Source of the DNA: a virus
Length of the DNA stretch: 32,201 nt
Direction: 5' to 3' (one strand)
Virus record (IMG/VR): IMGVR_UViG_3300009154_004099
Span: 1-32,201 of that record
Position numbers and translations under genes: made by a program. Positions 3-30,307 of this stretch are shown here, piece after piece. Position 1 is the stretch's first letter. The number at the start of each line of letters is the position of its first letter. Under the pieces are notes generated by a model that was not told the origin of the DNA, made no database searches, and saw only the letters and a program-made list of their open reading frames with translations.

Positions 3-3000
3 TGGTTTTATCTTGCCGGGAATAGTGCTGCACAGGGCAGTGGTTCTAAGGAAGCTGTATTATTTTCCAATGATGACGATATCAACAGCGGTGCGGTTGT
101 ATCAGGAAGTATCTGTTTGACTATTGCCGGTAACGCATCGACCACTGGCACTGGATTACTTTTTTATAGAAGACAAACATCTGGAGCATATGCTGAAGAA
201 TTTTATTATGGTACTACAATTGCTCAAAACACATGGAATCATGTTGCAGTAGTAAAATCAGGCACAAATATAAAAATATTTTTTAACGGATCAAGTGTTT
301 TATCGACAACTGCCGTAAATACCACATTTGGCACATCTGCAAAACCCGTTTCTATAGGCGGCAGATTTATAACTAACTATAGAAGCTATTTAAACGGTTA
401 CATCAGCAATTTGCGTATAGTAAAAGGCACAGCGGTCTACACAACTACTCCCTTTACACCAAGCACAATACCATTAACTGCCGTAACAAATACCAGTTTC
501 TTATTGTCAACACAAACTTTACAAAACAATACATTTATTGACAGCAGTAATAATGCATTGACTCTTACTAGAACTGGTTCAGTTACACAAGGTACATTCA
601 GCCCATATTCACCAAATGGTTGGAGTTTATATACCAATGGTACAAATAGCTATGCATATCTACCCCATAATGCATCTAGATCGATTGGCACTAGTGATTT
701 TTCAATTGAGTGCTGGGTATATATAGCAAAACAGCCAGCGAATTATACTAGAGTCTGGAGTGTTCAAAGCAACTATGGCTTGGCAAACAACACAGGAGTA
801 GAACTGTCATTTGGTATTGTGGATACACTGATACAAACACTAGTCGATGGTAATAGTTCGGTACAGGCCAGTGCAACATATGATACTACTAGCACCAGTG
901 GATCCGGACATGTTCGCAAATGGATACATGTGGTATCATCTAGACAAAATGGATACCTAAGGTTGTTTGTGAATGGAATTTTGCGTGAAGCACAAACCAA
1001 TTCAACAAATATTAATGGAACATCAAATACAAGTTTTGGAACAAACTCACAATTGGGCGTCGACTTAACTGAAATGTTCATCAGTAATTTTAGAATGTGT
1101 GTTGGATCTGTTCCCACAACATATTCTACCACCAGTACAGCCGGTGGTGTCACAATATTCACACCACCCACAAGTGCTTTGACTACCACAAGTCAAGGGG
1201 CCACTGCTGGTGATGTAAAATTGATGTTGTTCCAAAACAATAGAATTATTGATAATTCATCAAACAATTTTGCAGTAACCACAGTAAATAATCCTTCGAT
1301 TCAAAACTTTGGTCCATTTGCTAGTACAACTGCTTATACGCCAAGTCTACATGGTGGTAGTATGTACTTTAATGGCAGTAGTAGTTATCTGTCATCAACA
1401 ACGACCGCGTTCCAGCACACCGGAAATTTCACTTATGAATGTTGGGTCTATTGGAATGGTACAGTTCCTAGTGACTGGCCTATGATTTTTGATACAAGAC
1501 CATCAAATACTGCACAAAGTACTTCTATTGCTTGCAATTTAAATCCTACAACTTTTAGACTTAACTTCTATCTTGGGGGAACTGGTTATTACTGGGGATC
1601 GACCGCTCTACCGGCAAACATGTGGGTTCATGTAGCAGTGGTGCGTAGCAGCGGCACAGTAAAGATATATCAAAACGGTGTATTGGGCACAGATACAGCC
1701 TCAAATTCAAATACATTCTCAGGAGCCACTGGTATACGTATAGGAGCTAACATAGGTAATATGGGTTACTGGCCTGGATATATATCAAACTTTAGAGTAA
1801 CTAATGCAGCAGTATATACCGCCGCATTTCCACCACCAACAGCTCCAGTAACTGCCATCACTGATACAAGTTTGTTGTTAAATGGAACCAATTCTGGTAT
1901 TGTTGACAGCACTGGAATGAATGATTTGACAACTGTTGGGAACGCTATTATCAGCACAGCACAAAGCAAGTTTGGTGGTTCAAGCATGTATTTTGATGGA
2001 TCCACATATTTAACAGTGCCAACAAATCAAAATCTTGCATTTGGTTTGGGGAATTTTACAGTTGAGTTGTGGTATTATTCTACTAATCTCACATATGCTA
2101 AGGCTTTAGTTGATTTTAGACCATCTGGTGGTAATGGCGCATATTTTACTTTGTGGGTAACTACTTCTGGACAACCATTTTATTATGCAAATACGGCAAA
2201 TCAGATAATTGGGGCTGCACCATTATTAAATACTTGGAATCATGTTGCAGTAGTTCGTTTAGGAACAAGTACTAAGATGTATATAAATGGTGTTGTTCAA
2301 TCAACCATATATAATGATAGTACTACATATTTGTCACCAGCTGACAGGCCGTTTATTGGTAGTGATAGCAATAATTTGTCCAATCCCAATAGCAATTTTA
2401 TCGGTTATATTGATGACCTGCGTATCACCAAAGGTGTGGCTCGTTATACAAGTAGTTTTAGAAACTTTATCCCATCAACCGCAGTATTGACTCAAACAAG
2501 TCAAGGTGCCACAGAATCAACAACCAGCTTGTTGTTGACTGCACAAAATAGCAATTTAATTGACAGCACAAATAAAAATAACTTTACCATTGTTGGTAAT
2601 GTAACATCCAGCACATCAACAGTAAAAGCTGGTGCTACCAGTATGTATTTTGATGGTTCAAGCTATGCATTTGTAAATGGTCAACCAAATCACTTCTCAA
2701 GTGGTGATTTTACAGTTGAGTTGTGGGTTTATTTTACAACAGTAACGGCAAGTAGAATCATTATTGATTATAGACCAGCAGGAAGTCAAGGAGTATATTT
2801 TACATTGTGGATAAATGCGTCAAGCCAATTTACTTATCATGTAAGTTCAACAAATCAAATTATTGGTACAGTTGCACAAGCAAGTACATGGTATCATATT
2901 GCAGTAGTGCGTTTAGGAACTAGCACCAAGATGTATGTAAATGGTACACAAGCGGGTTCAACATATACCGATAGCAATGTATATTTAAGTGCAGTTAACA

Positions 3001-4358
3001 GACCAATGATTGGTGCTGATGGATACACACCGGGATTGGGTATTACTGGTTATATTGATGATTTCAGAGTCAGCAATGTGGCTAGATATACTGCCAATTT
3101 TTATACAGGACCATATACGGCATCCACAGCACAGTCAATAGTTAGTGTTGCTGCAAACACCAATTTGGTATATTTAAAAGTTGGTAGTACAGTGACATTT
3201 ACTATTACTGCAACAAATATGACAGATGGCACAATTTTAAATTGGACTAATACGGGCACTAGTTCCAGTAATTATTTTGCAGATGGCCTCAATACCAGTT
3301 CAGTAACAGTTGTTAACAATACAGCAACTGTTACCAGAACTGTATTAACTAGTGCTAGCGCCAGTGCATCGACGTTGATATTATCAATATCTAATTTATC
3401 AGGTACAATATTGGCTACATCAGAATCAGTTAGTTTGTCAAGTGATGTATTATCAACATCTTATACGGTACAATATTTAGTTGTTGCTGGTGGTGGTGCT
3501 GGTGGTGGACGACATGCTGGTGGTGGTGGCGGCGGCGGTTTGTTACAAGGAACAACTACTACTGGTGCTGTTGGAACTACTTTGACAGTGACAGTTGGTG
3601 CTGGCGCTCCCAGATCAACTGGCGGGGCACGTGGTGCTGTAGGAAGTAATTCAGTTCTTTCTGGTTCCACGCTATCAACACAAACTTCAATTGGCGGAGG
3701 AGGTGGTGGAGTTTATCCAGCAAGTACTGGGGTTGCCGGAACTAACGGCGGTTCTGGTGGTGGAGGTGGTTCAGATAGTGGAACATCTGCTGGTGGTTCT
3801 GGCACAACCGGTCAAGGTTATGCGGGAGGTACTGGTGTTGGCGGCCAACCAGGTGATGCTCGTATTTGCGGCGGCGGCGGCGGTGCAGGTGGCGCTGGTT
3901 CTAATGGTGTATACAGCCCTGCCTCATCAGGACATGGTGGAGTTGGTCTTCAATGGTTTGACGGCTTTTACTATTCTGGTGGCGGCGGTGGCGGCAATTG
4001 GTCCACATCCGTCAATGCTGGAAATGGCGGAATTGGTGGCGGCGGTGGCGGAGGCATGATGGTCGGAGCCGGTCTCGCTGGTGTTGGTGGAAGTTCTGGT
4101 AGAAATCTGGGCGGCAATGGTGCAGGTCCTTCTCTATTAGATTCAACAGGCGGGGATGGTGGTGCAAACACCGGCGGCGGTGGTGGCGGTGTTGGCCAAA
4201 GTCAATATCAAAGCTATACTGGAAATGGTGGAGCTGGTGGTTCTGGAATTGTTGTAATTCGTTACGCTGGAGCACAAAGAACTACAGGCGGAACGGTGAC
4301 AATGGATAAAGGATATACCTACCACGCATTTACAACTTCTGGTACATTTACTTACTAA
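3..4358 (+). CDS. Giant LamG-array / glycine-rich tail fibre-like adhesin 1 (5' partial)
   Basis: The frame is open from base 3 to the TAA at 4356-4358, so the gene begins left of the window; a TTG at 117 is only an internal codon. At least five concanavalin A-like LamG (Laminin_G_3 type) domains follow one another. Each carries the W-x-H-(V/I)-(A/V) strand hallmark, near nt 234, 921, 1620, 2235 and 2890, and most end in a G-Y-I-(S/D)-(N/D)-(F/L)-R strand. An Ig-like domain follows (about 3130-3460), then a glycine-rich domain (about 3469-4250) with runs of up to seven Gly, framed by YLVVAGGG and GGSGIVVIRY. It ends in a short aromatic strand (TSGTFTY). LamG folds bind carbohydrates, and polyglycine tips bind receptors in some T4-like adhesins such as phage S16 gp38. 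A receptor-binding fibre is therefore likely, although attachment to the baseplate cannot be seen because the N-terminus is missing. Confidence 0.8.
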   Translation, partial: WFYLAGNSAAQGSGSKEAVLFSNDDDINSGAVVSGSICLTIAGNASTTGTGLLFYRRQTSGAYAEEFYYGTTIAQNTWNHVAVVKSGTNIKIFFNGSSVLSTTAVNTTFGTSAKPVSIGGRFITNYRSYLNGYISNLRIVKGTAVYTTTPFTPSTIPLTAVTNTSFLLSTQTLQNNTFIDSSNNALTLTRTGSVTQGTFSPYSPNGWSLYTNGTNSYAYLPHNASRSIGTSDFSIECWVYIAKQPANYTRVWSVQSNYGLANNTGVELSFGIVDTLIQTLVDGNSSVQASATYDTTSTSGSGHVRKWIHVVSSRQNGYLRLFVNGILREAQTNSTNINGTSNTSFGTNSQLGVDLTEMFISNFRMCVGSVPTTYSTTSTAGGVTIFTPPTSALTTTSQGATAGDVKLMLFQNNRIIDNSSNNFAVTTVNNPSIQNFGPFASTTAYTPSLHGGSMYFNGSSSYLSSTTTAFQHTGNFTYECWVYWNGTVPSDWPMIFDTRPSNTAQSTSIACNLNPTTFRLNFYLGGTGYYWGSTALPANMWVHVAVVRSSGTVKIYQNGVLGTDTASNSNTFSGATGIRIGANIGNMGYWPGYISNFRVTNAAVYTAAFPPPTAPVTAITDTSLLLNGTNSGIVDSTGMNDLTTVGNAIISTAQSKFGGSSMYFDGSTYLTVPTNQNLAFGLGNFTVELWYYSTNLTYAKALVDFRPSGGNGAYFTLWVTTSGQPFYYANTANQIIGAAPLLNTWNHVAVVRLGTSTKMYINGVVQSTIYNDSTTYLSPADRPFIGSDSNNLSNPNSNFIGYIDDLRITKGVARYTSSFRNFIPSTAVLTQTSQGATESTTSLLLTAQNSNLIDSTNKNNFTIVGNVTSSTSTVKAGATSMYFDGSSYAFVNGQPNHFSSGDFTVELWVYFTTVTASRIIIDYRPAGSQGVYFTLWINASSQFTYHVSSTNQIIGTVAQASTWYHIAVVRLGTSTKMYVNGTQAGSTYTDSNVYLSAVNRPMIGADGYTPGLGITGYIDDFRVSNVARYTANFYTGPYTASTAQSIVSVAANTNLVYLKVGSTVTFTITATNMTDGTILNWTNTGTSSSNYFADGLNTSSVTVVNNTATVTRTVLTSASASASTLILSISNLSGTILATSESVSLSSDVLSTSYTVQYLVVAGGGAGGGRHAGGGGGGGLLQGTTTTGAVGTTLTVTVGAGAPRSTGGARGAVGSNSVLSGSTLSTQTSIGGGGGGVYPASTGVAGTNGGSGGGGGSDSGTSAGGSGTTGQGYAGGTGVGGQPGDARICGGGGGAGGAGSNGVYSPASSGHGGVGLQWFDGFYYSGGGGGGNWSTSVNAGNGGIGGGGGGGMMVGAGLAGVGGSSGRNLGGNGAGPSLLDSTGGDGGANTGGGGGGVGQSQYQSYTGNGGAGGSGIVVIRYAGAQRTTGGTVTMDKGYTYHAFTTSGTFTY

Positions 4359-4374: not shown

Positions 4375-4758
4375 ATGAGTCATTTTGCAAAAGTAGAAAA
4401 CGGCACGGTAACACAAGTTATCGTTGCCGAACAAGATGTTATCGATACAGGTATGTTTGGATCTGGTTGGATCCAAACATCCTATAACACCAGAGGTGGT
4501 GTACATCATAATCCTGAAACTAACGAGCCATCCGAAGATCAATCACGTGCATTACGTAAAAACTATGCAGGTGTTGGTTATACCTATGACAGTGAGCGTG
4601 ATGCTTTTATCCCACCACAGCCATATGCCAGTTGGGTTTTAGATGATAGTTCATGTTTATGGGCCGCTCCAGTTGCAATGCCAAGTGATGACAAGCAATA
4701 TATTTGGGATGAAGCAACTCAATCCTGGGTTGAATTTCAAAATACTGAACAAGCTTAA
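4375..4758 (+). CDS. Conserved phage protein of unknown function (MSHFAKVENG family), between the two fibres
   Basis: A 127-residue soluble protein beginning MSHFAKVENG, with a good Shine-Dalgarno (AAGGAG, 4363-4368) 6 nt before the ATG and 16 nt after the fibre stop. I recognise the pattern (N-terminal FAKVENG..TQVIVAE, central LRKNYAGVGYTYD, then FIPPQPYASW) from small proteins recurrent in marine T4-like and other aquatic phages; none has a function I can name. It is rich in Trp, Tyr and Asp, with no signal peptide, membrane segment or catalytic motif. Its position, co-transcribed behind one fibre and before a terminator, suggests a fibre-associated role such as assembly factor or minor virion protein. 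That is inference from context only. Confidence 0.75.
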   Translation: MSHFAKVENGTVTQVIVAEQDVIDTGMFGSGWIQTSYNTRGGVHHNPETNEPSEDQSRALRKNYAGVGYTYDSERDAFIPPQPYASWVLDDSSCLWAAPVAMPSDDKQYIWDEATQSWVEFQNTEQA

Positions 4759-4864: not shown

Positions 4865-7800
4865 ATGCTAATAGCCCAAACTCTTGCCACGTCTGTTGGA
4901 AGAAATCCACAGATTTCAACCACAATATCCTCTATTTTGGATATTTACAAATCTAATACAGCATTTGCATTGGACGGGCAAAGTATCGACGCCATTGATC
5001 TAATAACCAAAAACTCATTGGCTATAGTGGGCAATGCTGAAAATATGATCAGCACATTAAAATATAAGTATGATTCCAATAGTTTATATTTTGATGGTGA
5101 TACTTATATAACAGTAACAAACAACACTGGCTTGGCTCTTGGTATAGATGATTTTACTGTTGAGTTATGGATTTATCCCACATCGTTTAAAAATAGTCAA
5201 GCTCTAATTGATTTTAGACCACCTAACATCAATGGAGCATATTTTACTTTGTGGGTAAATACTTCCGGACAACCATATTACTATGTAGCTTCAGCAACTC
5301 GTATCACTGGTTCAGCAATGGTGTTGAATACTTGGAATCATATCTCAATATGTCGTAGCAGAACCAATACCCGGATGTTTCTCAATGGCGAACAAACAGG
5401 ATCAACTTTTGGTGATGGGACAACCTATCGCATATCAACCAATAGACCAATGATTGGTGCTGGGGGTTTTGAATCGGGGACTGCAGGAAAATTTACTGGC
5501 TATATAAATGAATTGCGTATAACCACTGGTGTAGCAAGATACACTAGTAGATTTATCCCAGCAAGTATAGTTGATGCAAGTGACCCATATTGGGACAGTA
5601 CATATATAAATTTAAAGGGCGGCTCTAATATACCCAATTCAAATAGTGTTACGGACTCTAGTGCAAAAGCAACACAAATAACTTCTAATACCCCACAGGG
5701 CACATTTACACCGTTTTTAGGATCGGGTCATTATAGTGTTTATTTTGATGGATCAGGCGATTATTTAACATCAACGAATTCAATAGCTTTTGGTACTGGT
5801 GATTTTACGATTGAGTTTTGGGTATATCCAACGAGATCTCCAGACGCTGATTGGACTACATTAGTCAGTATTGGTAACAATGTTGGCGGACAGGAAATTA
5901 GAATTTCACAAAATATCAACGGCGGCGGTTTTGGAATATTGATACCAGGTAACTATCATAAAGGATATGGCACTCTTGAGTTAAATCGATGGCATCATAT
6001 AGCCCTAATAAGAAATGGTGGCGTGGTTGTATTTTATCGAAACGGAATATTGGTTGATTCAACATTAAATGCAACATTTAATTTTAATCCCAGCATTAAT
6101 TCTACTAGAATTGGTATGTCACCGTATGGTGCTCAAGATGGATATTTTAAGGGTTATATTTCAAATTTAAGAATAACTAAATCAGTTGTTTATGATACTA
6201 GAGAGATCATTAATTTCCCAGTTCCTACAGACCCACTATCAATAGTACCTAATACTCAACTATTAACCTGTTATGATAATAATTTTATAAACAGCGCATT
6301 GGATTATTTGGAAAATCTAAATATCAGCGGTAATGTTAAGATTTCAACATGGACACCGTTTTCGCACCCATATTCTGTATCTAAGATGGCGGGCAGTTAT
6401 TATATAAATGGGTCGTCAATAGTTGCTACTCCACAAGCAGATTACCTAATAGGTCTACAGGATTTTACTTTTGAATGTTGGGTTTATCCTCTGGCAACTG
6501 GCACATTTAATTTAGTGGATAATAGACCGCTAAATACCAATGGTATTTATTTTGTTCTTACATATACAACTGGAACCAATATTTCTCTATATGTAGATTC
6601 TACAACTCAATTCAGTTCAGGGTCGGGACCAAAGTTAAACTCTTGGAATCATATTGCTTATGTTAAAAAATCTGGTCAGGCAACAATATTTTTAAACGGA
6701 AATGCAGTTGTGGTTGGCGAGGACAAATTCAATTACTTAGATTCTAATTGGTCCTTTGGATACGCAGCATTTAATTCTGACGCACTAAATGCTTATATAA
6801 CAGGCATTCGTGTAGTAAATGATGCAATTTATCAATTTGGATTACCAATTGATACACAATCTGAGCCAACATTGACCAATGATCCCAAATCCAATAGTGT
6901 TGTTTTATTATTAAATGGGAATAGTAGTCAACTGACCAATTCCTTTGTTGATAGCAGCCCAAACAATTTTTCCATATCCGTTGTTGGTGATCCAGTCCCG
7001 TCACCAGGAACTTTTTCGCCATTTGTTAATAACATTGGATATTACAGCGTTTATTTTGATGGATCTGGGGATTACTTATTTGCATCCCCAGATCCTGTAT
7101 TTTCATTTGAACTTGAGGATTTTACTGTTGAATGTTGGATTTATATACCACAAATACCAAACAATAATTACGGTAAAATGATTGTTGATGCTAGACCCTG
7201 GTCAACTAACGGTGCTTATTGGTTATTGGGCCTCACACCGTCTGGAATTGTAAGATTCAGTCAGGGATCGAACGCGGTAGGTTTAGATTCTTCATATGCT
7301 GTCCCAATAAGCCAATGGGTTCACATTGCTGTGACTAGATCAAGCACAAACATTTATATGTTTATAAATGGTGACGTTGTCAATTCGGCCACTGGTGCGG
7401 CTGCAAATATATTATCTAGTGGCCTACGTATTGGCGTTAATTCTTTCGTCGGTAATGCTCCAGATACGTATTTTAGTGGTTATATTTCTAACTTTAGAAT
7501 TATTAAAGGCACTGCGATCTATGTTTCAAAATTCACCCCATCAACTACTCCACTGCTGGACGTTTCTGGTACTAGTATATTGGCTTGCCAAAGCAACAAG
7601 TTTAAGGATTCCAGCATTAATCAGTTCCTAATAGATGTTAATGGTAATCCAAAGATTCTTACATTTTTCCCATTTTTGATTACTGAGGAATTGTATTCAA
7701 TATCTATTGTTGGGGGATCAACATATTTTACTAATAATAGTTATTTAACATTGTCGGCGAAAGATGCATTAAGTTTTGGTACTAGTGCGTTTACTATCGA

Positions 7801-10648
7801 ATGTTGGGTATACCCAATTGCATTGACAACATATGGGGCTGTGATCGAGGCAAGGAGTGGCCCAGTCGGGCAAGATTGGGCGTGTGGTTTGCGTAATTCG
7901 GGAGGATTTAAAGCTGAGCTTTATCTTGGTAGTCCATATACTGCAAAAAATGTAATAGCATTAGGCGCTTGGACTCATGTTGCCTGGGTTAGAAATAGTG
8001 ACGGCGTACTATCTATGTTTGTTGACGGGGTGTTGGATACTAGCTGGACTAGGATATCTCGAGCAATTAATGCCAATGGTTTAACGCAACGTATCGGTGC
8101 ACTTACTGATGGCGGTGGATATTATACAAATGGATACATATCCAATCTTCGAGTAGTCAACGGTTCTGCAATATATACAGCAAATTTTATTCCTGAAACC
8201 ACACCATTAGCAGCAATACCAAACACAAGTCTATTATTAAAAATGAATCCACAAAGTATTGTTGATAGCTCTTTGAAAAATAATATTGGTACAATTGGTA
8301 ATGTTGTTTTATCAACTAGCAAAACTAAGTTTGGTAATGAATCAATGTATTTTGATGGGGCTGGCGATTATTTATTAATTGCTAATAGTCCATTGTTACA
8401 GTTTAATGGTGAAAACTATACTGTTGATTTTTGGGCATATCCAACAAATATATCTGTGATATCTGGAGTCATTGGTAAAGGAACAACCAGCACAGGTTGG
8501 GAAATATTTATCAATGCCTCGGGCTATTGGTCGATAGTTGACGGGTCTACATCTGTTACAGGAATAATCCCCGCCGTTCTGAACGAATGGCAGTATATTT
8601 CTTATGTTAGATCAAATTCTTTCTCTAGACTTTTTATTAATGGAATAGAGTCTTTGGGCAGAACCAACTCCAGCAACTACAGTCAAACTGATCAAATAGT
8701 GATTGGTGCTCGAAGGGATAAGACAAATTCATATTCTGGATATATCGATTCTTTACGTATTACTAAGGGAATGGCAAGATATACATATCAAGAAAAGTCA
8801 ATAGCTTTAAACAATACGCCGCCAACAGTTTCTAGTCTAGGTGCCAAGTCCTCAACAACTAGTCTATTATTACTAGCATCAAATGCTACAGTGATTGATT
8901 CTACAAATAAAAACGCATTCACTGTTGTTGGTAATGTATCAATCAGTTCAGATACATATAAATTTCAAACCAATAGTTTGCGTTTTGAAGGTACTGGCTA
9001 TATGTTCAATTCAAACTCAATAGATTTTTTAACTAATAATTTTACAGTTGAATTATGGATCAACGCTGACTCTTTTACTGCTAATCCAGTATTGGTTGAT
9101 TACAGACCTACAAACACAAAAGGTGATTATTTTACGCTTTTTTTGAGCTCAACAGGCCAACCAATTTATTTTAAAAATAACACAAATAGAATAACTGGTC
9201 CTATCTTATTGATTAACACTTGGTATCATATTGCAATATGTCGCATAGATGGCATTATCAAAATGTTTGTTAATGGCACTCAAGTAACAGCAACATATAG
9301 TGACACAGATTCATATGGATCCAATTCGCTAGCCCCGATTATTGGTGGAAGTTCATACGCTCCTGGATCAAATTTATTTGTTGGATATATTGATGAGTTA
9401 AGGATCACAGGTGCTGCAAGATATCCAACTTCTTTTGATATTTCTCTCGTAGGTAAAGATAGTCCTGGCTGGAATGTTGATAGTCAATGTATTGTTGTGC
9501 CAAATAGTTTTTCTGTTTTAGAGGGAAATACTGTAACATTCACAATCAAAACATTTAATGTTTTAAATGGAACTGTGCTTTATTGGTCAAATTTGGGAAC
9601 AACTACTGCTGATAGATTTACTGATTTTGAAAATTCTGGCACAGTGACAATCGTTGACAATATTGGTATCATATCTAGAACAATATATTGGAATAATGTT
9701 GTTGATGGGATAACCACCCTGGGAATAAAAGTATCTGATGGTCTTGGCACAGTATTTGGTCAATCTGCATTGATAGAAGTCTCAGATAATACAACTAGTT
9801 TAGTTAAATTAGACTATTTGATTGTGGCAGGCGGTGGTGGTGGTGGTGTGGGTGGTGGAGGTGGTGCTGGTGGCCTGTTATACAGATCATCAGCAATTTT
9901 TACTTCAGCCACAACTTATACGGTGACTATTGGGGCAGGCGGCATAGGCACATTATATAGTACCAACGGTAAAAACTCTAGTATCATTGGAGGGGATAAA
10001 GAATTGATTGCTGTTGGTGGTGGTGCAGGAGCAACGAGAGATTTTACTCAGCCAGGTGCTGGTGCTAGTGGTACTGGTTATCGAGGCGCTACAGGTGGAA
10101 GTGGCGGTGGCGGTGGTGGTAACTATGCATCAAATGATGGTGGAAATGCTGGTGGTAAAGGCATTGCGTTTCAAGGGGGTGACGGTGGAACAGCGCCCGG
10201 GGCTAGCGGTACTCCGAGTTGTGGGGGCGGCGGCGCAGGTGCATCAGCAGCTAGTGGCGGGGTCTCGCAAGGTGGCATTGGATTATCAGATAGTCAAGTT
10301 GGTGGAATATTGTCAGATGCCAACATAGGTGTGATTGTTTCTGGAATAAGGTATATTGCAGGCGGCGGCGGTGGTGGTTCATATAATGTAGGTTATGCTG
10401 CCGGTGGTTCTGGTGGTGGCGGAATAGGTGCAGCCGCTGGTGGAACACCGACAGCCGGTCTAGCTAACACTGGTGGTGGGGGTGGTGGCAAAAGTGCAGA
10501 TAATGGGGGAGCAGCTGGCGGGTCAGGGATTGTAGTTATAAGATGTCCAATATCTACAATAATATCAGTAACTGGGGACCCACAAATAGTTAATGGTGAT
10601 GGTTATAAGACATATACTTGGACAAGCTCTGGGTCATTCACTCTTTAA
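4865..10648 (+). CDS. Giant LamG-array / glycine-rich tail fibre-like adhesin 2
   Basis: A complete 1927-residue protein. An in-frame TAG lies just upstream and the ATG at 4865 is the first start after it; no strong ribosome site is visible. Only about 35 residues precede the first domain. Seven LamG domains follow, with hallmark W-x-(H/Y)-I/V strands near residues 156, 375, 593, 818, 1036, 1242 and 1453. An Ig-like domain covers about 1543-1645 and a glycine-rich domain about 1650-1895 (YLIVAGGGGGG to GGSGIVVIR), with a terminal aromatic strand (SSGSFTL). The domain order and both ends of the Gly-rich domain match fibre 1, so the two are paralogues. LamG 1 and 7 are closest by eye to LamG 4 and 5 of fibre 1 (shared FTVELW, YFTLW, TW.H, G.Y.(D/N).(L/F)R). 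A carbohydrate- or receptor-binding fibre is most likely. I see no T4 long-tail-fibre N-terminal attachment sequence. Confidence 0.82.
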   Translation: MLIAQTLATSVGRNPQISTTISSILDIYKSNTAFALDGQSIDAIDLITKNSLAIVGNAENMISTLKYKYDSNSLYFDGDTYITVTNNTGLALGIDDFTVELWIYPTSFKNSQALIDFRPPNINGAYFTLWVNTSGQPYYYVASATRITGSAMVLNTWNHISICRSRTNTRMFLNGEQTGSTFGDGTTYRISTNRPMIGAGGFESGTAGKFTGYINELRITTGVARYTSRFIPASIVDASDPYWDSTYINLKGGSNIPNSNSVTDSSAKATQITSNTPQGTFTPFLGSGHYSVYFDGSGDYLTSTNSIAFGTGDFTIEFWVYPTRSPDADWTTLVSIGNNVGGQEIRISQNINGGGFGILIPGNYHKGYGTLELNRWHHIALIRNGGVVVFYRNGILVDSTLNATFNFNPSINSTRIGMSPYGAQDGYFKGYISNLRITKSVVYDTREIINFPVPTDPLSIVPNTQLLTCYDNNFINSALDYLENLNISGNVKISTWTPFSHPYSVSKMAGSYYINGSSIVATPQADYLIGLQDFTFECWVYPLATGTFNLVDNRPLNTNGIYFVLTYTTGTNISLYVDSTTQFSSGSGPKLNSWNHIAYVKKSGQATIFLNGNAVVVGEDKFNYLDSNWSFGYAAFNSDALNAYITGIRVVNDAIYQFGLPIDTQSEPTLTNDPKSNSVVLLLNGNSSQLTNSFVDSSPNNFSISVVGDPVPSPGTFSPFVNNIGYYSVYFDGSGDYLFASPDPVFSFELEDFTVECWIYIPQIPNNNYGKMIVDARPWSTNGAYWLLGLTPSGIVRFSQGSNAVGLDSSYAVPISQWVHIAVTRSSTNIYMFINGDVVNSATGAAANILSSGLRIGVNSFVGNAPDTYFSGYISNFRIIKGTAIYVSKFTPSTTPLLDVSGTSILACQSNKFKDSSINQFLIDVNGNPKILTFFPFLITEELYSISIVGGSTYFTNNSYLTLSAKDALSFGTSAFTIECWVYPIALTTYGAVIEARSGPVGQDWACGLRNSGGFKAELYLGSPYTAKNVIALGAWTHVAWVRNSDGVLSMFVDGVLDTSWTRISRAINANGLTQRIGALTDGGGYYTNGYISNLRVVNGSAIYTANFIPETTPLAAIPNTSLLLKMNPQSIVDSSLKNNIGTIGNVVLSTSKTKFGNESMYFDGAGDYLLIANSPLLQFNGENYTVDFWAYPTNISVISGVIGKGTTSTGWEIFINASGYWSIVDGSTSVTGIIPAVLNEWQYISYVRSNSFSRLFINGIESLGRTNSSNYSQTDQIVIGARRDKTNSYSGYIDSLRITKGMARYTYQEKSIALNNTPPTVSSLGAKSSTTSLLLLASNATVIDSTNKNAFTVVGNVSISSDTYKFQTNSLRFEGTGYMFNSNSIDFLTNNFTVELWINADSFTANPVLVDYRPTNTKGDYFTLFLSSTGQPIYFKNNTNRITGPILLINTWYHIAICRIDGIIKMFVNGTQVTATYSDTDSYGSNSLAPIIGGSSYAPGSNLFVGYIDELRITGAARYPTSFDISLVGKDSPGWNVDSQCIVVPNSFSVLEGNTVTFTIKTFNVLNGTVLYWSNLGTTTADRFTDFENSGTVTIVDNIGIISRTIYWNNVVDGITTLGIKVSDGLGTVFGQSALIEVSDNTTSLVKLDYLIVAGGGGGGVGGGGGAGGLLYRSSAIFTSATTYTVTIGAGGIGTLYSTNGKNSSIIGGDKELIAVGGGAGATRDFTQPGAGASGTGYRGATGGSGGGGGGNYASNDGGNAGGKGIAFQGGDGGTAPGASGTPSCGGGGAGASAASGGVSQGGIGLSDSQVGGILSDANIGVIVSGIRYIAGGGGGGSYNVGYAAGGSGGGGIGAAAGGTPTAGLANTGGGGGGKSADNGGAAGGSGIVVIRCPISTIISVTGDPQIVNGDGYKTYTWTSSGSFTL

Positions 10649-10724: not shown

Positions 10725-10753
10725 TTGACAAAAATGCATCAAATTTGTTAATA
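10725..10753 (+). promoter_or_regulatory. Putative host sigma70-type promoter of the glycosyltransferase gene
   Basis: A perfect -35 (TTGACA, 10725-10730) is followed after 17 nt by TTAATA. An alternative reading is 18 nt followed by TAATAT with an upstream TG, resembling an extended -10. Transcription would start near 10760 and give a leader of about 20 nt before the ATG at 10780. The -35 is strong and the -10 is imperfect (4 of 6 for the second reading). Confidence 0.5.
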
Positions 10754-10764
10754 TTTGTGATATT

Positions 10765-10779: not shown

Positions 10780-13700
10780 ATGTTCAATAATTCTCTCAAC
10801 ATAGCTATTATCGATATAATTGGTATTCCTTATGACGGCACTACCGTTTTTAATCAAGGGTTAGGTGGCAGTGAAAGTGCAGTCACTCTAATGAGTCGCG
10901 AATTGGTAGCTTTAGGCCATTCCGTAACAGTTTTTAACAATTGCAATACAGACCATGCCCGTCCAGGAACTTATGAAAATGTTGTTTATAGATCCTTGGC
11001 TGATCTAGCATTGCCCGAAATTGATGCACAATTTAATGTTGTTATAAGTTCCAGGACAGTTATCCCTTTTGTTCATCCCAATGACTATGCTAGATTGGGT
11101 GACAATAGAGCATGGGCTTATCAAGCAATGAATTTGTATGATAGAATCTTAGCTCCGGCAAGTTTAAGAATATTGTGGATGCATGATACATTTTGTCTGG
11201 GCGATTTGTTAATTGAGGAATTGGCAGTGTCTAATAGGATCACCGATATCTTCACATTAACTGATTGGCATACTACATATATTACGAATTGTGATCACGG
11301 CCGCCGAAGAAATTTTGAAGTTCTAAAACGCAAAATTTTTATAACAAGAAACGGTGCTAACAGCTATATCCCAGAAGTTGATATTGCTGCTAAAGATCCT
11401 AATCTTTATGTTTATAATGCTAGTGTGACTAAAGGGATGATACCTTTGGTAAAACATATTTGGCCAAGAGTAAAACAGCAAATACCACAAGCACAATTAA
11501 AAATCATTGGCGGCTATTATAGATTTAGTCAAAATGAGGAACCAGATCAACAGGAAAAAGATTGGCGAATTATGGCCAATGACCCTGTCAACGCTCGATT
11601 GGGTATTGAGTTTACTGGTGTGATCCCTCAAAAAGATATCGCTGGTATTTTGGCAAAATCCAGTTTTATGATTTACCCGTGTTCTTTTCCTGAAACATTT
11701 GGTATCAGTACATTAGAAAGTCTACTTTATAATACACCTAGTATTACTTGTAGATTTGGTGGATTGGAAGAAGTTGCTTTAGAGGGCGCTTGTTATTTGA
11801 TAGATTACGCTGTTGAACCTAATAGCCTTTTTCCCAATATTGATACCCCAAGTCAAATTGACAGATTTGTTGATGTGGTAGTTGCTGCACATCATAATAG
11901 ATATCTACACCAACAAAAACAATATTATTGTAACATTGTAAAACCATATGCTGGTTGGAATACTGTTGCATTGCAATGGCATCAACATTTATTACATAAA
12001 ACTGAAAAATATTTGTCTGTGGATCAATATAGGCAAGTTGATAAAATCAACAAAGCCGTGCATAAAATTTGGAATAGAAGGACACATAACACTGTGGAAT
12101 TAGTTAACTATAAATCAAACGTTGAACAAGAAATTGTAATTGTAAGTCCATTTTATAATTGCGCACAATATATTAGTCGTTGCATTGAATCAGTAGCTGC
12201 TCAAGATTATTTTAATTATCATCATATTTTAATTGATGATTGTTCAACTGACGAAACTTATGAAACTGCAAAAGCGACAATAAATGCTTTGCCACAAAAT
12301 CTTATCAGTAAATTCACTCTTATTAAAAATGCAGAGAGAGTGGGTGCTGTGAAAAATCAAATCAGTACTATTAAAAAAATAATTAATCGAGACGCCATCA
12401 TAATGTTATTAGATGGAGATGATTCGTTAGTAAATGACAATACCATTTTTAATTATTATAATAATGTTTATGATGGTACTACGGAATTTGCATATGGTAG
12501 CTGCTGGAGTATGGTAGACAACATACCATTAATAAGCCAACCTTATCCAGAATCGGTTAAGAAAAACAAGTCTTATAGACAGCATCATTTTAACTGGATT
12601 TTGCCATATACCCATTTAAGGACATTTAAACGATTTTTATTGAATTCTATCGATGAAAGTCAATTTAAAGATGCAAACGGCGAATGGTATCGTGCTGGTG
12701 GTGATGGGGCTGTTTTTTATGCCTTTCTTGAGGAAGCCGATCCCAACAAAGTTAAATGTCTGCAACAAATAGTCTACAATTATAATGATATAAACCCATT
12801 AAATGATTACAAAGTCAATGGTGAAGAACAGAATAGAACAGCAAGAGCCATCATAGGAAAAAACATGTCAAAAACATTAGAAAAATATTCAGTCATCATC
12901 CCCACAATGTGGAGAGCCAATGAAGTGTTAATACCGTTTTTGTATAAATTATGTGCATGTGAGTCTGTTGGTGAAATCATTATTGTCAATAATGATGTGA
13001 GTAAGACCCCAAATCTCGAATATAATTCAAAGTTAAAGTTATTTAATTTTGACACAAATATATATGTAAATCCTGCTTGGAATTTTGGGGTCACTATTAG
13101 TCAATTTGATAGATTGTGTATAGCCAATGACGACATATCGTTTGATACGCAAGTATTTGATATATTACAAGATCAGTTGTCCGAATCAAATGGCGTATTT
13201 GGTCTTTGTCCTGGTGACCCTATTTTTAACCAACCTCCGGTGACCACAAAAACTATTGACATAATTCCATGGACTGGGCAAAACACTCATGGGTTTGGGT
13301 GTTTGATGTTTGTGCATAAAAAAAGTTGGTATAAAATACCTGTTGGCTTAGACATATATTATGGAGACAATTACATTTTTGACAAACAGTTAGCAAGTGG
13401 TAAAACCAACTATCTTATCACAAATATGGATTTTTATACTCCTTTTGCTTCCACAACCAAAGACCCATCTATTACAAAAAGTTTTTTAGAAAAAGAATCT
13501 TTGCTTTATCAAGAAATTAGAAATAATATGGAAAAGTTAGTAACGGATAATCCTATTAATAATCAACAGTTGACCACCATAGCTAATTTAGTTGATGATA
13601 AAAAACATATTGATGTTTTAGAAACTACTAAAGATACTACTGTCAAAAAAAGAATTTTAATTGCAATACCTACGGCAAGAAATATTGAACCAGAAACATT

Positions 13701-14952
13701 TAAAAGTATATATGATTTAAAAATACCTGATGGATATGATGTTAATTTTCAATACTTTTTTGGTTACAATATTGATCAAATTAGAAATCTAATTGCTGAC
13801 TGGGTGGTTAAGGGCTATGACTATTTGTTTAGTGTGGATAGTGATATTAGTTTTGACTCAGACACATTAGAAAAGTTATTAAACCATAACGTTGATGTGG
13901 TGTCTGGTCTATATATTCAAAGGAAGCCAGGGCAACATGTATTAGAAGTATATGAGCATAATGGATATGGTGGTGTGAGTAATATTCCCTATGGAAAAAT
14001 TAAAGATCGAGGATTAGTGGAAATTGCCAGTTGTGGTTTTGGGTGTGTTTTAGTAAAAGCGCAAGTGGTAAAATCTATTGGATATCCGCAGTTTGAATAT
14101 CATAGCGCAATCGATCATACAAATACAGTATCGGAGGATGTGGATTTTTGTAGGAAAGCTTTGGAAAAAGGTTTTAGGATTTGGGCAGACACCACCATAC
14201 AATGTAGACATACTGGTAGTTTTACTTTTAATATTGATAATACCATTCCGGCACTGGATGATTCAAAAAAAAAGGATAATGACTTTAGTGACAGATTGAG
14301 AGAATTGGGAAATCAAAGATTGCTGCCAAAGGCAACAGTTGATTATTTGACTTTATTACGTGATAATAATGTGTCGCCAAAAGTAATTTATGATATTGGG
14401 GCATGTGTATTGCATTGGACTAACGAAGCGGAGAAGATTTGGCCAAACGCGGAATATGTTATGTTCGAAGCAATGAAAGAAACAGAATTTCTATACAAAG
14501 AACGTGGCTTTAAATATAATGTTGGTCCACTAAGTGATGTTTCTGGAAAACTTATTGATTTTTATCAAAACACATATCATCCAGGTGGGAACAGCTATTA
14601 TATTGAAAATCCATTAGTCAATCCAGAAGCTCCGGAATATTTCAATGAAAGTCATAAAAGACAATTAGTAACTGTGGCATTAGATGATGTAGTAAAGGAT
14701 CGTGGGTTTCCATTGCCAGATTTTATTAAAATGGATGTTCAGGGTGCAGAGTTAGATATCTTAAAAGGCGCCACTGAAACATTAAAATCTGTAACGCATG
14801 TGATCTTAGAATTACAATGTGTTGAATATAATACAGGCGCACCGCAACGTGATGAAGTTATTGCTTATATGAGTGATTTAGGGTTTGAACTCATATGTCA
14901 ATTTACAAATGCAGGTCCTGACGGTGATTATCATTTCATGAGACGATTATGA
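10780..14952 (+). CDS. Five-domain glycosyltransferase (GT4-like, GT2, two further GT-A domains) fused to FkbM methyltransferase
   Basis: A 1390-residue cytoplasmic enzyme with five readable modules. Residues 1 to about 410 form a GT-B fold GT4-type transferase (N-terminal GGSESAV loop; E-x7-E at E305/E313 in PETFGISTLE). Residues about 450-690 form a GT2 domain with DDCSTD (486-491) and DGDDS (545-549). Residues about 700-900 form a divergent GT-A domain (VIIPT near 705, NDD at 783-785). Residues about 955-1150 form a second divergent GT-A domain with D1020-S-D1022, SEDVDF (1118-1123) and CRHTG (1142-1146). Residues about 1185-1390 form an FkbM-type SAM methyltransferase (YDIG at 1204-1207, E1230, KMDVQGAEL near 1317-1325). 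The motifs suggest all five may be active. It probably builds and methyl-caps a short glycan, but the acceptor (virion fibre, host surface or other) is unknown. It lies directly behind the fibre genes, and its stop abuts the convergent NUDIX stop. Confidence 0.85.
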   Translation: MFNNSLNIAIIDIIGIPYDGTTVFNQGLGGSESAVTLMSRELVALGHSVTVFNNCNTDHARPGTYENVVYRSLADLALPEIDAQFNVVISSRTVIPFVHPNDYARLGDNRAWAYQAMNLYDRILAPASLRILWMHDTFCLGDLLIEELAVSNRITDIFTLTDWHTTYITNCDHGRRRNFEVLKRKIFITRNGANSYIPEVDIAAKDPNLYVYNASVTKGMIPLVKHIWPRVKQQIPQAQLKIIGGYYRFSQNEEPDQQEKDWRIMANDPVNARLGIEFTGVIPQKDIAGILAKSSFMIYPCSFPETFGISTLESLLYNTPSITCRFGGLEEVALEGACYLIDYAVEPNSLFPNIDTPSQIDRFVDVVVAAHHNRYLHQQKQYYCNIVKPYAGWNTVALQWHQHLLHKTEKYLSVDQYRQVDKINKAVHKIWNRRTHNTVELVNYKSNVEQEIVIVSPFYNCAQYISRCIESVAAQDYFNYHHILIDDCSTDETYETAKATINALPQNLISKFTLIKNAERVGAVKNQISTIKKIINRDAIIMLLDGDDSLVNDNTIFNYYNNVYDGTTEFAYGSCWSMVDNIPLISQPYPESVKKNKSYRQHHFNWILPYTHLRTFKRFLLNSIDESQFKDANGEWYRAGGDGAVFYAFLEEADPNKVKCLQQIVYNYNDINPLNDYKVNGEEQNRTARAIIGKNMSKTLEKYSVIIPTMWRANEVLIPFLYKLCACESVGEIIIVNNDVSKTPNLEYNSKLKLFNFDTNIYVNPAWNFGVTISQFDRLCIANDDISFDTQVFDILQDQLSESNGVFGLCPGDPIFNQPPVTTKTIDIIPWTGQNTHGFGCLMFVHKKSWYKIPVGLDIYYGDNYIFDKQLASGKTNYLITNMDFYTPFASTTKDPSITKSFLEKESLLYQEIRNNMEKLVTDNPINNQQLTTIANLVDDKKHIDVLETTKDTTVKKRILIAIPTARNIEPETFKSIYDLKIPDGYDVNFQYFFGYNIDQIRNLIADWVVKGYDYLFSVDSDISFDSDTLEKLLNHNVDVVSGLYIQRKPGQHVLEVYEHNGYGGVSNIPYGKIKDRGLVEIASCGFGCVLVKAQVVKSIGYPQFEYHSAIDHTNTVSEDVDFCRKALEKGFRIWADTTIQCRHTGSFTFNIDNTIPALDDSKKKDNDFSDRLRELGNQRLLPKATVDYLTLLRDNNVSPKVIYDIGACVLHWTNEAEKIWPNAEYVMFEAMKETEFLYKERGFKYNVGPLSDVSGKLIDFYQNTYHPGGNSYYIENPLVNPEAPEYFNESHKRQLVTVALDDVVKDRGFPLPDFIKMDVQGAELDILKGATETLKSVTHVILELQCVEYNTGAPQRDEVIAYMSDLGFELICQFTNAGPDGDYHFMRRL

Positions 14953-15375
14953 TCACAAATTCAATGATGAAACGGTGGTTTTGAGTTTTTGAGTTAGTTC
15001 GGAAAACTTAATAGTTCTCCAAACACCTGGATGTAATGGTTTGGGATAGTCTTCAATCGGAAGCCAAGCATATCCTCTATGCTCGTTGTTGAGTTCTGGC
15101 ACAAATTCTTCTTCTACCACTATTAAGAATGTGTGATAGGTAAATTTTTTATTTGAACTCACAAATGTTTCTATGGGTATCAGTGTACAATTGTTAATAA
15201 CACCGCCTAGTTCTTCCTGTATTTCTCTGTGTAGAGCAACATCGACAGATTCTGCTATCTCTACTTTGCCGCCAACTAATCCCCAAGTTCCAGAATATTT
15301 TTGTCCATTCCTTAAAAGAAATAAAAATCTATGAGTTTTGGAACAATAAATCAATGCACCTGTTCCTAAGGTCAT
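14953..15375 (-). CDS. NUDIX hydrolase
   Basis: About 140 residues with a near-perfect Nudix box, G-x5-E-x7-R-E-x2-E-E-x-G, at residues 41-62 when counted from the upstream ATG at 15390 (GGKVEIAE...HREIQEELG). Only the final hydrophobic position is replaced by Gly. This Mg-dependent family cleaves nucleoside diphosphate-linked compounds such as (d)NTPs, ADP-ribose or dinucleoside polyphosphates; the substrate cannot be read here. I prefer the start at 15375: its ATG overlaps the gp15 stop (ATGA) and has GGAG 9 nt upstream, whereas the ATG at 15390 has no nearby Shine-Dalgarno and would overlap gp15 by 19 nt. It is the last gene of the minus-strand gp14-gp15 operon and is probably translationally coupled. 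The stop abuts that of the glycosyltransferase. Confidence 0.88.
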   Translation of the reverse strand: MTLGTGALIYCSKTHRFLFLLRNGQKYSGTWGLVGGKVEIAESVDVALHREIQEELGGVINNCTLIPIETFVSSNKKFTYHTFLIVVEEEFVPELNNEHRGYAWLPIEDYPKPLHPGVWRTIKFSELTQKLKTTVSSLNL

Positions 15376-16769
15376 AGTTTTAAACTCCATTCAGCAGCAT
15401 CATATTTTCCTTCTACACTTTTGCTCCAAGAGCCATCTTTCCATTTGTATTGTAAGTTTGTTTTCAGATTAGACACATATTCCACCGAATTATGGTTGCT
15501 GCTATCAAAAGCCACTTTCCATAATTCGCCATCAAATTCGATTATATCATTGGCATGTGCAATTAGTTGTTGATGCCCCGGTCTATTCCATATTGCAGCC
15601 CCCTCAACATCACCATCACTACCTATATCATGTAGGATCAAAAATCTAGAGCCAATTGTTGGATTAAGTAATTCACTATCAACTGCAACGTTTTGTGGAT
15701 TAATAATTGCTGTTATTGGTGATAGAGTATTGGCTGGTAGCGTGTCGGGGAATGGGCTATATATTAATAAAGTTTCATCAGTTGGATGATAAGCTACAGT
15801 GCCTATTATTTCACTTCCACTAGTTTGTAGTAGTCTAATTTGACTTATACCGTTCTCCAAATGCCCATATTGGTCAATCAACGCCAACCAAGGATGATGG
15901 GATTTTCCTTTATTGATGAATTCCAAATTGCCATCGACAACATCGCTTAATTTAATCAACCTTAAAAAGTTACTTTGATAAATTACCCCATAACTCATAA
16001 AAGTAAATATTTGTGCGCTTGTGGCTGGGTCTTTAACATTACCAAATAAATCATCTAATAGAGCACCTTCAGAATCAAATATTGATGCTGTGATTTTTTG
16101 TATAACTCCTAATTTTTTAACCTTAGCTGGGGGGCTTAGCCAAATTGGCAACTCAAAAGTCAAAGATGCAACATCTATATTTTCATCTGGCCCGGCAGGG
16201 ACCGATCTGTTGGTCCACCCTATGTCAGTCAATCTAATGTAGCTCAAGCTAGTCCAATCGATATAATTATCTGTACTTTGTATTTCGAGGGCTGGACTAA
16301 AAATGGTCCCTAATTGTTCTATCAGCATAAGTTTCTGTTCAGTATTTCCAGTCCAAATATCCACTTTTAAAGTCAAAGTATATGGGACTGGCATCAATCT
16401 TTCTACGGTATAGGCATCGCCCTGTTGACTTGTGTATTCACCAGAATCTGGGTCTACGGCTCTAGTCCTAATATTCATTTTGCTAACAAAATTGGGTTCC
16501 TGTATTCTATTAACATCGTATCTCATTGCAGCAATATATACTGCCATAGAAGGCAAACTGTTCAGTGCATTTTCGGAATTGCCTCTTAGTATTTGGCTAG
16601 CTTGTCTGCTGGAATCACCATAAAAAACAGGTACACGTTGTAAGACTACGTTGCCGTCGTCATCATTGCCCATTTGAACCTGAAAATTGCTTAAAATCCG
16701 TATAAATTGTTGTAAAAATCGACGAATTTGGCCCGAATAGAAAAAGTTGGAATATGTTGGCGTGCTCAT
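15372..16769 (-). CDS. 15: Tail sheath stabiliser / tail terminator protein (T4 gp15-like)
   Basis: A 465-residue protein whose first ~245 residues match the T4 gp15 family. The N-terminus has the F-Y-S/N..(I/F)RR...SN(F/I)Q(V/I) pattern of gp15 (here FFYSGQIRRF then SNFQV). Later come a Y-D-x-N-R-x-Q-(E)P segment, VPYTL..KVDIWTGN, an EQL..(I)FSPAL strand and ELPIWLSPPAKVKK. gp15 forms the hexameric ring that caps the finished tail and joins it to the neck. The family member in T4 has 272 residues, so about 220 extra C-terminal residues here form an additional, probably beta-rich domain that I do not recognise. The gene starts 3 nt after the gp14 stop without its own Shine-Dalgarno, implying translational coupling. 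Confidence 0.85.
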   Translation of the reverse strand: MSTPTYSNFFYSGQIRRFLQQFIRILSNFQVQMGNDDDGNVVLQRVPVFYGDSSRQASQILRGNSENALNSLPSMAVYIAAMRYDVNRIQEPNFVSKMNIRTRAVDPDSGEYTSQQGDAYTVERLMPVPYTLTLKVDIWTGNTEQKLMLIEQLGTIFSPALEIQSTDNYIDWTSLSYIRLTDIGWTNRSVPAGPDENIDVASLTFELPIWLSPPAKVKKLGVIQKITASIFDSEGALLDDLFGNVKDPATSAQIFTFMSYGVIYQSNFLRLIKLSDVVDGNLEFINKGKSHHPWLALIDQYGHLENGISQIRLLQTSGSEIIGTVAYHPTDETLLIYSPFPDTLPANTLSPITAIINPQNVAVDSELLNPTIGSRFLILHDIGSDGDVEGAAIWNRPGHQQLIAHANDIIEFDGELWKVAFDSSNHNSVEYVSNLKTNLQYKWKDGSWSKSVEGKYDAAEWSLKL

Positions 16770-20465: not shown

Positions 20466-21098
20466 ATGTCAATAATTGCTATTTGTGGATTTATAGGTTC
20501 GGGTAAAAATACTGCTGCTGATTATTTGGTTAGTGATTGTAAATTTGTTAGAGCTAGTTTTGCATCATCTCTTAAAGATGCCGTATCTTCTGTTTTTGGG
20601 TGGGATAGAGAATTATTAGAAGGTATTACAGAAGAATCTAGACTTTGGCGAGAAACTGTGGACGTTTGGTGGAGCGACCGCCTAAACATACCCAACCTAA
20701 CTCCACGATGGGTTTTGCAACATTGGGGGACTGATTTAATTCGTAATAATTTTCATCAAGACATCTGGATCGCCAGTTTGGAGTATAAATTATCTCAATT
20801 AGGTGATCGAGTAGTGATCAGTGATTGTAGATTTGTCAATGAAGTCACTACTATTAAAAAGTTGGGCGGCAAAGTTATTTGGGTTCGCAGAGGGTCATTG
20901 CCAAATTGGCATGATTGCGCAATCAAAACTCTATCGGCAGAAAGAGAACAATTACAACTACCAGAAAAAAGCATGTATAGCAAATACCCCAAGATTCATA
21001 TTAGTGAATGGGCTTGGTTATCGACCGATTTTGATGCAGTGATCGATAATAATGCCACAATTTATGATTTATATCAACAGCTTGAAGATCTAATTTAA
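20466..21098 (+). CDS. 1: Deoxynucleoside monophosphate kinase (T4 gp1-like)
   Basis: A 210-residue P-loop kinase. Walker A is G8-F-I-G-S-G-K14-N-T16, matching the G-x-x-x-S-G-K-D/N-T of T4 gp1, followed by the family's A-D-Y/F-L. Further family-like parts are ASFASSLKDAVSSVFGWDRELLEG, R.VLQ.WGTDL.R, and VVISDCRFVNEV, a Walker B-like strand. In T4 the enzyme phosphorylates dGMP, dTMP and hydroxymethyl-dCMP for phage DNA synthesis; the substrate range here is unknown, and whether this phage has modified cytosine cannot be told. T4 gp1 is 241 residues. A good Shine-Dalgarno (AAGGAA, 20455-20460) precedes the ATG. Its 3' end overlaps the convergent HNH-like gene by 4 nt. It is the one metabolic gene in a morphogenesis cluster. 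Confidence 0.87.
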   Translation: MSIIAICGFIGSGKNTAADYLVSDCKFVRASFASSLKDAVSSVFGWDRELLEGITEESRLWRETVDVWWSDRLNIPNLTPRWVLQHWGTDLIRNNFHQDIWIASLEYKLSQLGDRVVISDCRFVNEVTTIKKLGGKVIWVRRGSLPNWHDCAIKTLSAEREQLQLPEKSMYSKYPKIHISEWAWLSTDFDAVIDNNATIYDLYQQLEDLI

Positions 21099-24783: not shown

Positions 24784-24810
24784 AAAATAGGAGCGCATTG
24801 CTCCTATTTT
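24784..24810. terminator. Bidirectional intrinsic terminator between gp18 and the homing endonuclease
   Basis: AAAATAGGAGC (24784-24794) pairs perfectly with GCTCCTATTTT (24800-24810) around a 5-nt loop (GCATT). U-tracts lie on both sides when read from either strand. It serves gp18 on the plus strand. On the minus strand it overlaps the first base of the endonuclease stop codon (24810-24812), so it can also end that transcript. Confidence 0.9.
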
Positions 24811-29866: not shown

Positions 29867-30307
29867 ATGAGCAAATACGCCCAAGGAAAATATCAGGTCA
29901 AAAATCAAGACAAATATATTGGCAACGGTGTTCCAAATTATCGTAGCGGGTGGGAATTTGCAGTTATGACATTTTTTGACAATAACCCAGCAATTACACA
30001 ATGGGCCAGTGAACCATTTAAAATACCTTATAGAAATCCACTAACTGGTAAAAATACGATCTATGTACCTGATTTTATGATAATCTATCTAGACAAAAAT
30101 AATCAAAGGCATGCAGAAGTTATTGAAGTAAAACCAAAAAAAGAAACTAGCTTGCAGGAGGCTGGACGTAGTCCTAGAGCTCAAGCAGCGGCGATAGTTA
30201 ATATGGCTAAATGGGCTGCTGCTAGGGTATGGTGCCAACAAAATGGTATGGTATTTAGAGTTATTACAGAAGATCAAATTTTCCAAGGCACAAAAAAAGC
30301 TAAGTAA
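29867..30307 (+). CDS. 4: Head completion nuclease-like protein (T4 gp4-like)
   Basis: A 146-residue protein of the T4 gp4 (50/65) head-completion family (150 residues in T4). The PD-(D/E)xK-type core is visible: W29-E30 in the YRSGWE helix, V-P-D69-F on the first strand and E87-V-K89 on the next, followed by a conserved-looking RSPRAQ..A...NMAKWAAAR helix. T4 heads lacking gp4 cannot join tails although they are filled. It begins 4 nt after the previous stop without an obvious Shine-Dalgarno, implying coupling. In T4 gene 4 neighbours genes 2 and 53; here it lies between a LysM tail gene and gp16. Confidence 0.87.
   Translation: MSKYAQGKYQVKNQDKYIGNGVPNYRSGWEFAVMTFFDNNPAITQWASEPFKIPYRNPLTGKNTIYVPDFMIIYLDKNNQRHAEVIEVKPKKETSLQEAGRSPRAQAAAIVNMAKWAAARVWCQQNGMVFRVITEDQIFQGTKKAK

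Follow-up and report, generated by a model that had tools for sequence, protein, structure and literature searches.

What does a phage build with four glycosyltransferases (GTs) and a methyltransferase fused into a single polypeptide, and on which acceptor? The question is raised by IMG/VR virus record IMGVR_UViG_3300009154_004099, of which positions 1 to 32,201 were analyzed (the window), and in which one frame of 1,390 codons runs from ATG to stop with zero internal stops (Table 1). The original prediction, made from the letters alone, had described this frame as an assembly line that could make a short glycan, cap it by methylation, and act either on the phage's own fibres or on the host surface. 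We found that the frame is intact and consists of five consecutive enzyme modules, and that the module content is combinatorial across relatives, which is the new finding of this work. In addition, we propose, with about an even chance of being right, that this phage protein is a soluble multi-enzyme whose modules assemble a short glycan step by step on a protein of the virion, with an optional methyl cap.

Pfam domains above the curated cut-offs were found at residues 217-340 (Glyco_trans_1_4), 454-591 (Glycos_transf_2) and 1205-1371 (Methyltransf_21/FkbM), PHROG 1574, whose function is unknown, matched residues 956-1152 (2.8e-23), and residues 700-950 had no Pfam match. Two AlphaFold2 models were generated from alignments of relatives, one covering residues 1-700 (mean predicted local distance difference test, pLDDT, 86.9; predicted template modelling score, pTM, 0.85) and the other residues 695-1390 (mean pLDDT 87.7; pTM 0.40). 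All five modules had enzyme folds, and the region from 700 to 950 was modelled as a GT-A domain. Module 1, with PF13692 and PF00534 above the cut-off, a GT-B fold, an E-x7-E motif and a Gly-rich loop, is a putative GT4 enzyme for which retaining transfer from a nucleotide sugar is predicted; its best fold matches were MshA (Z 28.6, 2.9 Å over 335 residues) and TarM (Z 28.1), with WaaG also among them. Module 2 carries the DxD metal site, the catalytic Asp and the PF00535 domain of GT2, and its sequence-profile matches in the PDB were TagF, chondroitin synthase and other GT2 chains. Module 3 (residues ~697-925) showed the GT-A fold of GalNAc-T2 (Z 15.5, 3.2 Å over 218 residues), a likeness of fold only, without a Pfam match, that does not extend to a GT27 assignment. 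Module 4 (residues 957-1155) was closest in fold to STIV A197 (Z 19.9, 2.1 Å over 168 residues), with which its E-D motif aligns, followed by Mnn9 (Z 16.4), and both modules 3 and 4 combine the GT-A fold with a conserved DxD-like metal site (N783-D-D and D1020-x-D1022, respectively). Module 5 (residues 1165-1390) is a class I S-adenosylmethionine (SAM) methyltransferase fold (Z ~15; COMT, Z 15.5), and a PF05050 score of 61.6 bits against a cut-off of 22.7, together with the SAM-binding motif, places it in FkbM. These family assignments hold for the single domains, and no named multi-domain protein family can be claimed. As a separate observation, the FkbM module (14293-14949) had a BFVD match in the amoeba-infecting giant virus Moumouvirus, an FkbM protein with 40% identity and a TM of 0.94.

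The conservation of the motifs was read from alignments of 28-32 relatives with 48-72% identity. Residues E305, E313, D487, D545-G546-D547-D548, D642, D1020, D1022, E1119-D1120 and H1144 were invariant, G27-G30 were nearly invariant, and N783-D784-D785, D863, D1205, G1207 and K-x-D-x-Q-G-x-E (1317-1324) were invariant or conserved in at least 90%. All of the motifs named at the outset (E305/E313, D545-G-D-D, N783-D-D, D1020-S-D and D1205-I-G) were present and conserved, with no motif residue lost. Against relatives of ~80% identity, the ratio of nonsynonymous to synonymous substitution rates (dN/dS) was ~0.04-0.15 in every module, rough figures given that dS was near saturation, and as far as such comparisons of sequence go, every module appears to be under purifying selection and none seems to evolve as if released. 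A decayed module was ruled out by the conserved motifs and low dN/dS in each. A dN/dS of 0.85 for module 4 in one relative (L029) was an artefact, another methyltransferase being inserted there in that contig.

Relatives were encoded by 394 IMG/VR stretches, and a profile search gave at least 586 matches. When hidden Markov models of the five modules (M1 to M5) were run on the fetched contigs, the domain order of the window protein, M1-M2-M3-M4-M5 in one frame, was found in 42 of them. The recurrence of this frame in so many contigs rules out an assembly artefact, including a frameshift or sequencing join within the gene. The order M1-M2-M3-M4 was found in 17 contigs, M1-M2-M4-M5 in 9 and M1-M2-M4 in 2 (module 3 thus missing from 11), the remainder being cut, split or supplied with extras. 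M1-M2 always came first, and the module order was kept in every fused variant. The additions and exchanges took several forms: a 322-kb contig (L058) carried a Methyltransf_24-type domain between modules 3 and 4; a domain of the same kind lay behind module 3, as far as the contig runs, in L029 (81% identity to the window protein), and took the place of FkbM at the C-terminus in L044. A GT25 module was added after FkbM in L053 and was a separate overlapping frame in L052; FkbM was a separate frame with a stop-start overlap in L042 and L043, the overlap sequence differing between the two; the protein was split between modules 3 and 4 in L061; and extra FkbM or module-3-like genes lay downstream in L008 and L010-L013. 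On a quick tree of M1-M2, giving rough counts, the state of module 3 changed at least 4 times and that of the fused methyltransferase (FkbM) at least 9 times. Modules that are fused in some relatives and encoded by separate overlapping genes in others fit the expectation for enzymes that share a pathway, and the relatives would alter their glycan product through module gain, loss, splitting and swapping.

The models also bear on how the modules might work together. Because of the high pTM of the first-half model, modules 1 and 2 are suggested to pack as one unit; modules 3-5 are modelled as beads on short linkers whose mutual arrangement is not fixed, and in the AlphaFold2 model the linker between modules 4 and 5 was short, without a long helix. 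In a Foldseek search with the second half, tandem GT-A synthases ranked first (heparosan synthase 2 and chondroitin polymerase); these matches arise by chaining modules, and the mutual module arrangement differs. The lack of a fixed arrangement of modules 3-5 (pTM 0.40), together with the retention of the rest of the protein where module 3 or FkbM is missing, is consistent with separate reactions of the modules on different acceptors, in which case the fusion would serve only co-expression or stoichiometry. We regard this as improbable, since the M1-M2 core is always present and tightly packed, the module order is constant in every fused variant, and a similar fusion, A064R of PBCV-1, acts sequentially (PMC7826918). 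The prediction of an assembly line capped by methylation thus stands as to its anatomy, for which A064R is a proven working analogue; it does not stand as a fixed line, since relatives gain, lose, split and swap modules and do not always have the cap.

A064R, from the chlorovirus PBCV-1, is a protein of 638 aa in which two GT domains are joined to a third domain, an O-methyltransferase for the terminal sugar (PMC7826918). Like A064R, which elongates and methylates the end of the glycan on a virion protein, the phage protein is a virus-encoded fusion of at least two GT domains and a methyltransferase (PMC7826918), and by this analogy a virion-protein acceptor and a methylated last sugar are predicted here. 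The likeness described here is one of domain make-up, and A064R differs in that it belongs to a eukaryotic giant virus, has two GTs rather than four and acts on the capsid protein Vp54. A second PBCV-1 protein, A111/114R, also has several GT domains (three) in one polypeptide serving one glycan (PMC7826918), but it is without a methyltransferase and works on the N-glycan core, and the comparison is by description only. Among bacterial systems, WsaE of Geobacillus stearothermophilus combines two GTs with a chain-capping methyltransferase (PMC2943079), and in WbdA/WbdD, WbbB and Klebsiella O7 ORF6, GT modules are fused to or complexed with a terminator (PMC11231755). The likeness to WsaE and these O-antigen polymerase-terminators is looser than that to A064R: there the methyltransferase is N-terminal, the products are repeats built on a lipid carrier and destined for an ABC exporter, and proteins of the WbdD type have a coiled-coil ruler and a membrane helix, neither of which was apparent in the phage models.

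In the function that we propose, the protein, in which no clear transmembrane segment was found, would be made as a soluble enzyme in the host cytosol. The invariant core of modules 1 and 2 (GT-B/GT4 and GT2) would attach or extend the first sugars, and modules 3 and 4, judged by fold and distribution, would each contribute a single sugar, with module 3 dispensable. FkbM would then O-methylate a sugar, probably as a cap, as A064R and WsaE suggest (PMC7826918, PMC2943079). The acceptor would be a virion protein, most likely the adjoining fibre, judging from the position of the gene and from virion glycosylation in mycobacteriophages (PMC12363180), and the fibre would be glycosylated in the host cytosol before assembly. 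The host would supply the donor sugars, with a contribution from the phage's own sugar-nucleotide enzymes in some relatives. The activity of each module, the order of action, the sugars, the acceptor and the effect on the phage are what we infer from these comparisons.

The proposed acceptor is suggested in part by the neighbourhood. As the original prediction had said, the GT gene lies directly behind two fibre genes, which are on the same strand and encode Laminin_G_3 domains. In most loci of the main clade of relatives, the GT frame follows another frame on its strand at a distance of 4-50 bases, and this preceding frame is often a LamG-type fibre; in the divergent clade, the GT gene is alone on its own strand and tail-fibre genes adjoin on the other strand. 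LamG fibres were near the GT gene in 21 of 53 loci compared to 4 of 75 gp15 loci without the GT gene, a difference that is suggestive only, as the contigs differ in size and kinship. Phages known to glycosylate their own structural proteins offer a precedent (the GTs of mycobacteriophages Che8, gp110, Corndog, gp38, and Myrna; PMC12363180), although the targets there are the capsid and tail tube, and these GTs are not described as multi-GT or methyltransferase fusions (PMC12363180). As for the supply of sugars, one relative phage contig (L167; G002:46000-60000) held a sugar-nucleotide cluster with a GDP-mannose 4,6-dehydratase (Gmd; 497 bits against a cut-off of 415), a sugar C-methyltransferase, two epimerase-type enzymes, a GT34, an FkbM and a heptose-1-phosphate adenylyltransferase/mannose-phosphate isomerase-like fusion; in the 12 relative records searched, a GDP_Man_Dehyd match was absent in 8 and NTP_transferase (PF00483) in all 12.

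GT4, GT2 and FkbM are common in lipopolysaccharide (LPS) and capsule pathways, and the same enzymes could remodel a host surface glycan (an LPS or capsule side chain) in the way of serotype-converting phage GTs, limiting superinfection or freeing progeny. The presence of TarM and WaaG among the best folds of module 1, a weak PHROG match to GtrB-like O-antigen conversion and the multi-GT proteins with a methyl terminator that build O-antigens (PMC11231755) all point in this direction. The initiating undecaprenyl-phosphate transferase, PF02397, was absent in 12 relative records, mostly fragments, and the host could supply the enzyme; this absence weakens a lipid-linked route, and the lack of a clear membrane segment weighs against host-glycan remodelling as well. 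Moreover, the gene is fixed among virion genes of large phages and is not a prophage moron, and self-modification would suit this structural-gene context better than exclusion. We therefore consider remodelling of the host glycan unlikely, and a change in the host surface that blocks re-adsorption, which had been offered as the second option at the outset, found no specific support.

Phage GTs that glycosylate DNA are also known, and the target could be a hypermodified base of the phage's own DNA. Such GTs are cited in a study of another phage lineage (PMC12619734), and the GT gene is 5.5 kb from a gene for a deoxynucleoside monophosphate kinase. Nevertheless, the neighbours of the GT gene are fibre and tail genes, and for FkbM and a fold like that of GalNAc-T2 a protein or a glycan would be the more fitting acceptor. 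In the 322-kb relative, the Asn of FNIASYALF is retained in the Thymidylat_synt gene, which points to a thymidylate synthase rather than to a dCMP hydroxymethylase and weakens DNA glucosylation, and there was no Tet/JBP match, though control genomes gave none either. DNA as the target is very improbable on these grounds.

The fibre is the best-supported target of glycosylation and is a predicted acceptor, with fibre genes upstream or adjoining and no lipid initiating GT found. Several points weigh against it. Adjacency to a fibre gene is no proof, as fibres vary widely and, in the divergent clade, gene and fibres lie on opposite strands; from the promoter-like site that precedes it, the GT gene could be expressed independently of the fibres; among the relative records, a single one (322 kb) looks near-complete, so that absences in the others are weak; and the sugars and enzyme activity are predicted, as the acceptor is.

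No relative of the whole protein was found among 50,697 records of isolate phages, where the best matches cover 27%, and a DNA-level search for relatives gave no match. Two UniProt proteins of uncultured Caudovirales, A0A6J5M7M7 and A0A6J5T3W3, are members of this family on structural and sequence grounds, with 48% and 59% identity, respectively, over the aligned part; they bear automatic domain names only, without a described function. A split M1-M2 / M4 relative was present on a 12-kb contig of a metagenome-assembled gammaproteobacterium (L082), in a scan of bacterial genomes that used two peptide patterns only and is no proof of absence elsewhere. A phage protein of this kind was not described in any of the papers searched. 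Large aquatic phages of a different lineage, the Moraphages, have four groups of core GTs with no known target (PMC12619734). A broader and more tentative idea, which we think has somewhat less than an even chance, is that a widespread lineage of large aquatic phages makes its virion glycan with a single modular multi-enzyme and diversifies this glycan by adding, deleting, splitting and swapping modules of both enzyme types, GT and methyltransferase. Viruses of prokaryotes would then encode the glycans of their particles in a mix-and-match fashion, as chloroviruses do. With FkbM modules 40% identical across the divide, the comparison suggests a design reached both by viruses of bacteria and by giant viruses of eukaryotes. 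Phage particle glycosylation is known from a few cultured phages; here, what would be a whole short pathway in one protein with interchangeable modules is conserved in hundreds of uncultivated phage contigs. If the proposed function is true, the virion glycan would be linked to an enzyme composition readable directly from sequence, and such proteins would offer ready-made enzymes for glycosylation in several steps.

The window phage is an uncultivated phage from an aquatic setting, large and contractile-tailed, with a T4-like sheath stabiliser and a tail sheath that is closest to those of Sinorhizobium phage Phosso, Agrobacterium phage Atu_ph07 and Pseudomonas phages such as PA5oct. The other features of the locus and of the compared contigs are listed in Table 1.

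Table 1. Positions of the GT gene, its modules and neighbouring features; positions are those of the window unless a contig is named.
Feature	Positions	Strand	Description
Whole GT gene	10780..14952	+	1390 aa; four GT modules and FkbM methyltransferase
Module 1	10780..12009	+	aa 1-410; GT-B fold, GT4-like; G-rich loop 27-30, K218, E305-x7-E313; PF13692/PF00534
Module 2	12121..12879	+	aa 448-700; GT2, GT-A; D487, D545-G-D-D548, D642; PF00535 1.3e-20
Module 3	12880..13533	+	aa 701-918; GT-A, GalNAc-T2-like fold; N783-D-D, D863; optional module
Module 4	13642..14259	+	aa 955-1160; GT-A; D1020-x-D1022, E1119-D1120, H1144; PHROG 1574; STIV A197 fold
Module 5	14293..14949	+	aa 1172-1390; FkbM SAM methyltransferase; D1205-I-G, K1317-x-D-x-Q-G-x-E1324; PF05050 1.3e-16
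Fibre gene directly upstream	4865..10648	+	1927 aa; seven Laminin_G_3 domains and a glycine-rich domain
Second fibre gene, cut by window start	3..4358	+	five Laminin_G_3 domains
127-aa protein	4375-4758		PHROG 7759; recurs beside fibre genes in GT-bearing relatives, 51-61% identity
Promoter-like site	10725..10754	+	TTGACA, 18, TAATAT with TG (perfect -35, extended -10); in 131-base gap before GT gene
NUDIX hydrolase	14953..15390	-	convergent, abuts stop of GT gene
Tail sheath stabiliser	15372..16769	-	T4 gp15-like
Deoxynucleoside monophosphate kinase gene	20466-21098		5.5 kb from GT gene
HNH/homing endonuclease	24810-26465	-	beside tail sheath gene; related one at same place in relative L148
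TnsA-like endonuclease N-terminal domain protein	29867-30307		PF08722; in structural region
Conserved 245-aa protein	L101:11757-12503	-	PHROG 30607; immediately behind NUDIX-gp15, the place of the GT gene in the window; many gp15 relatives
Other fusion close to same slot	L128:5097-7208, L152:13183-15321	-	MptE-like (PF01973), Methyltransf_23 and FkbM

The promoter-like site ahead of the GT gene may give it its own expression; such sites were not commoner across the region than in shuffles. No tRNA or Rfam features were found in the window. In a search from the sheath stabiliser, most gp15 relatives were without the GT polyprotein in the slot and had the 245-aa frame instead, followed by large frames, some with tail-fibre matches. 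The 245-aa frame was considered as a MptE/Maf-like protein, for which profile comparison gave no support and Pfam no match. The relatives of PF01973, the first domain of the other fusion close to this slot, include flagellin-glycosylating Maf proteins, and the place beside the fibre genes seems to recruit unrelated fusions that modify glycans or add methyl groups.

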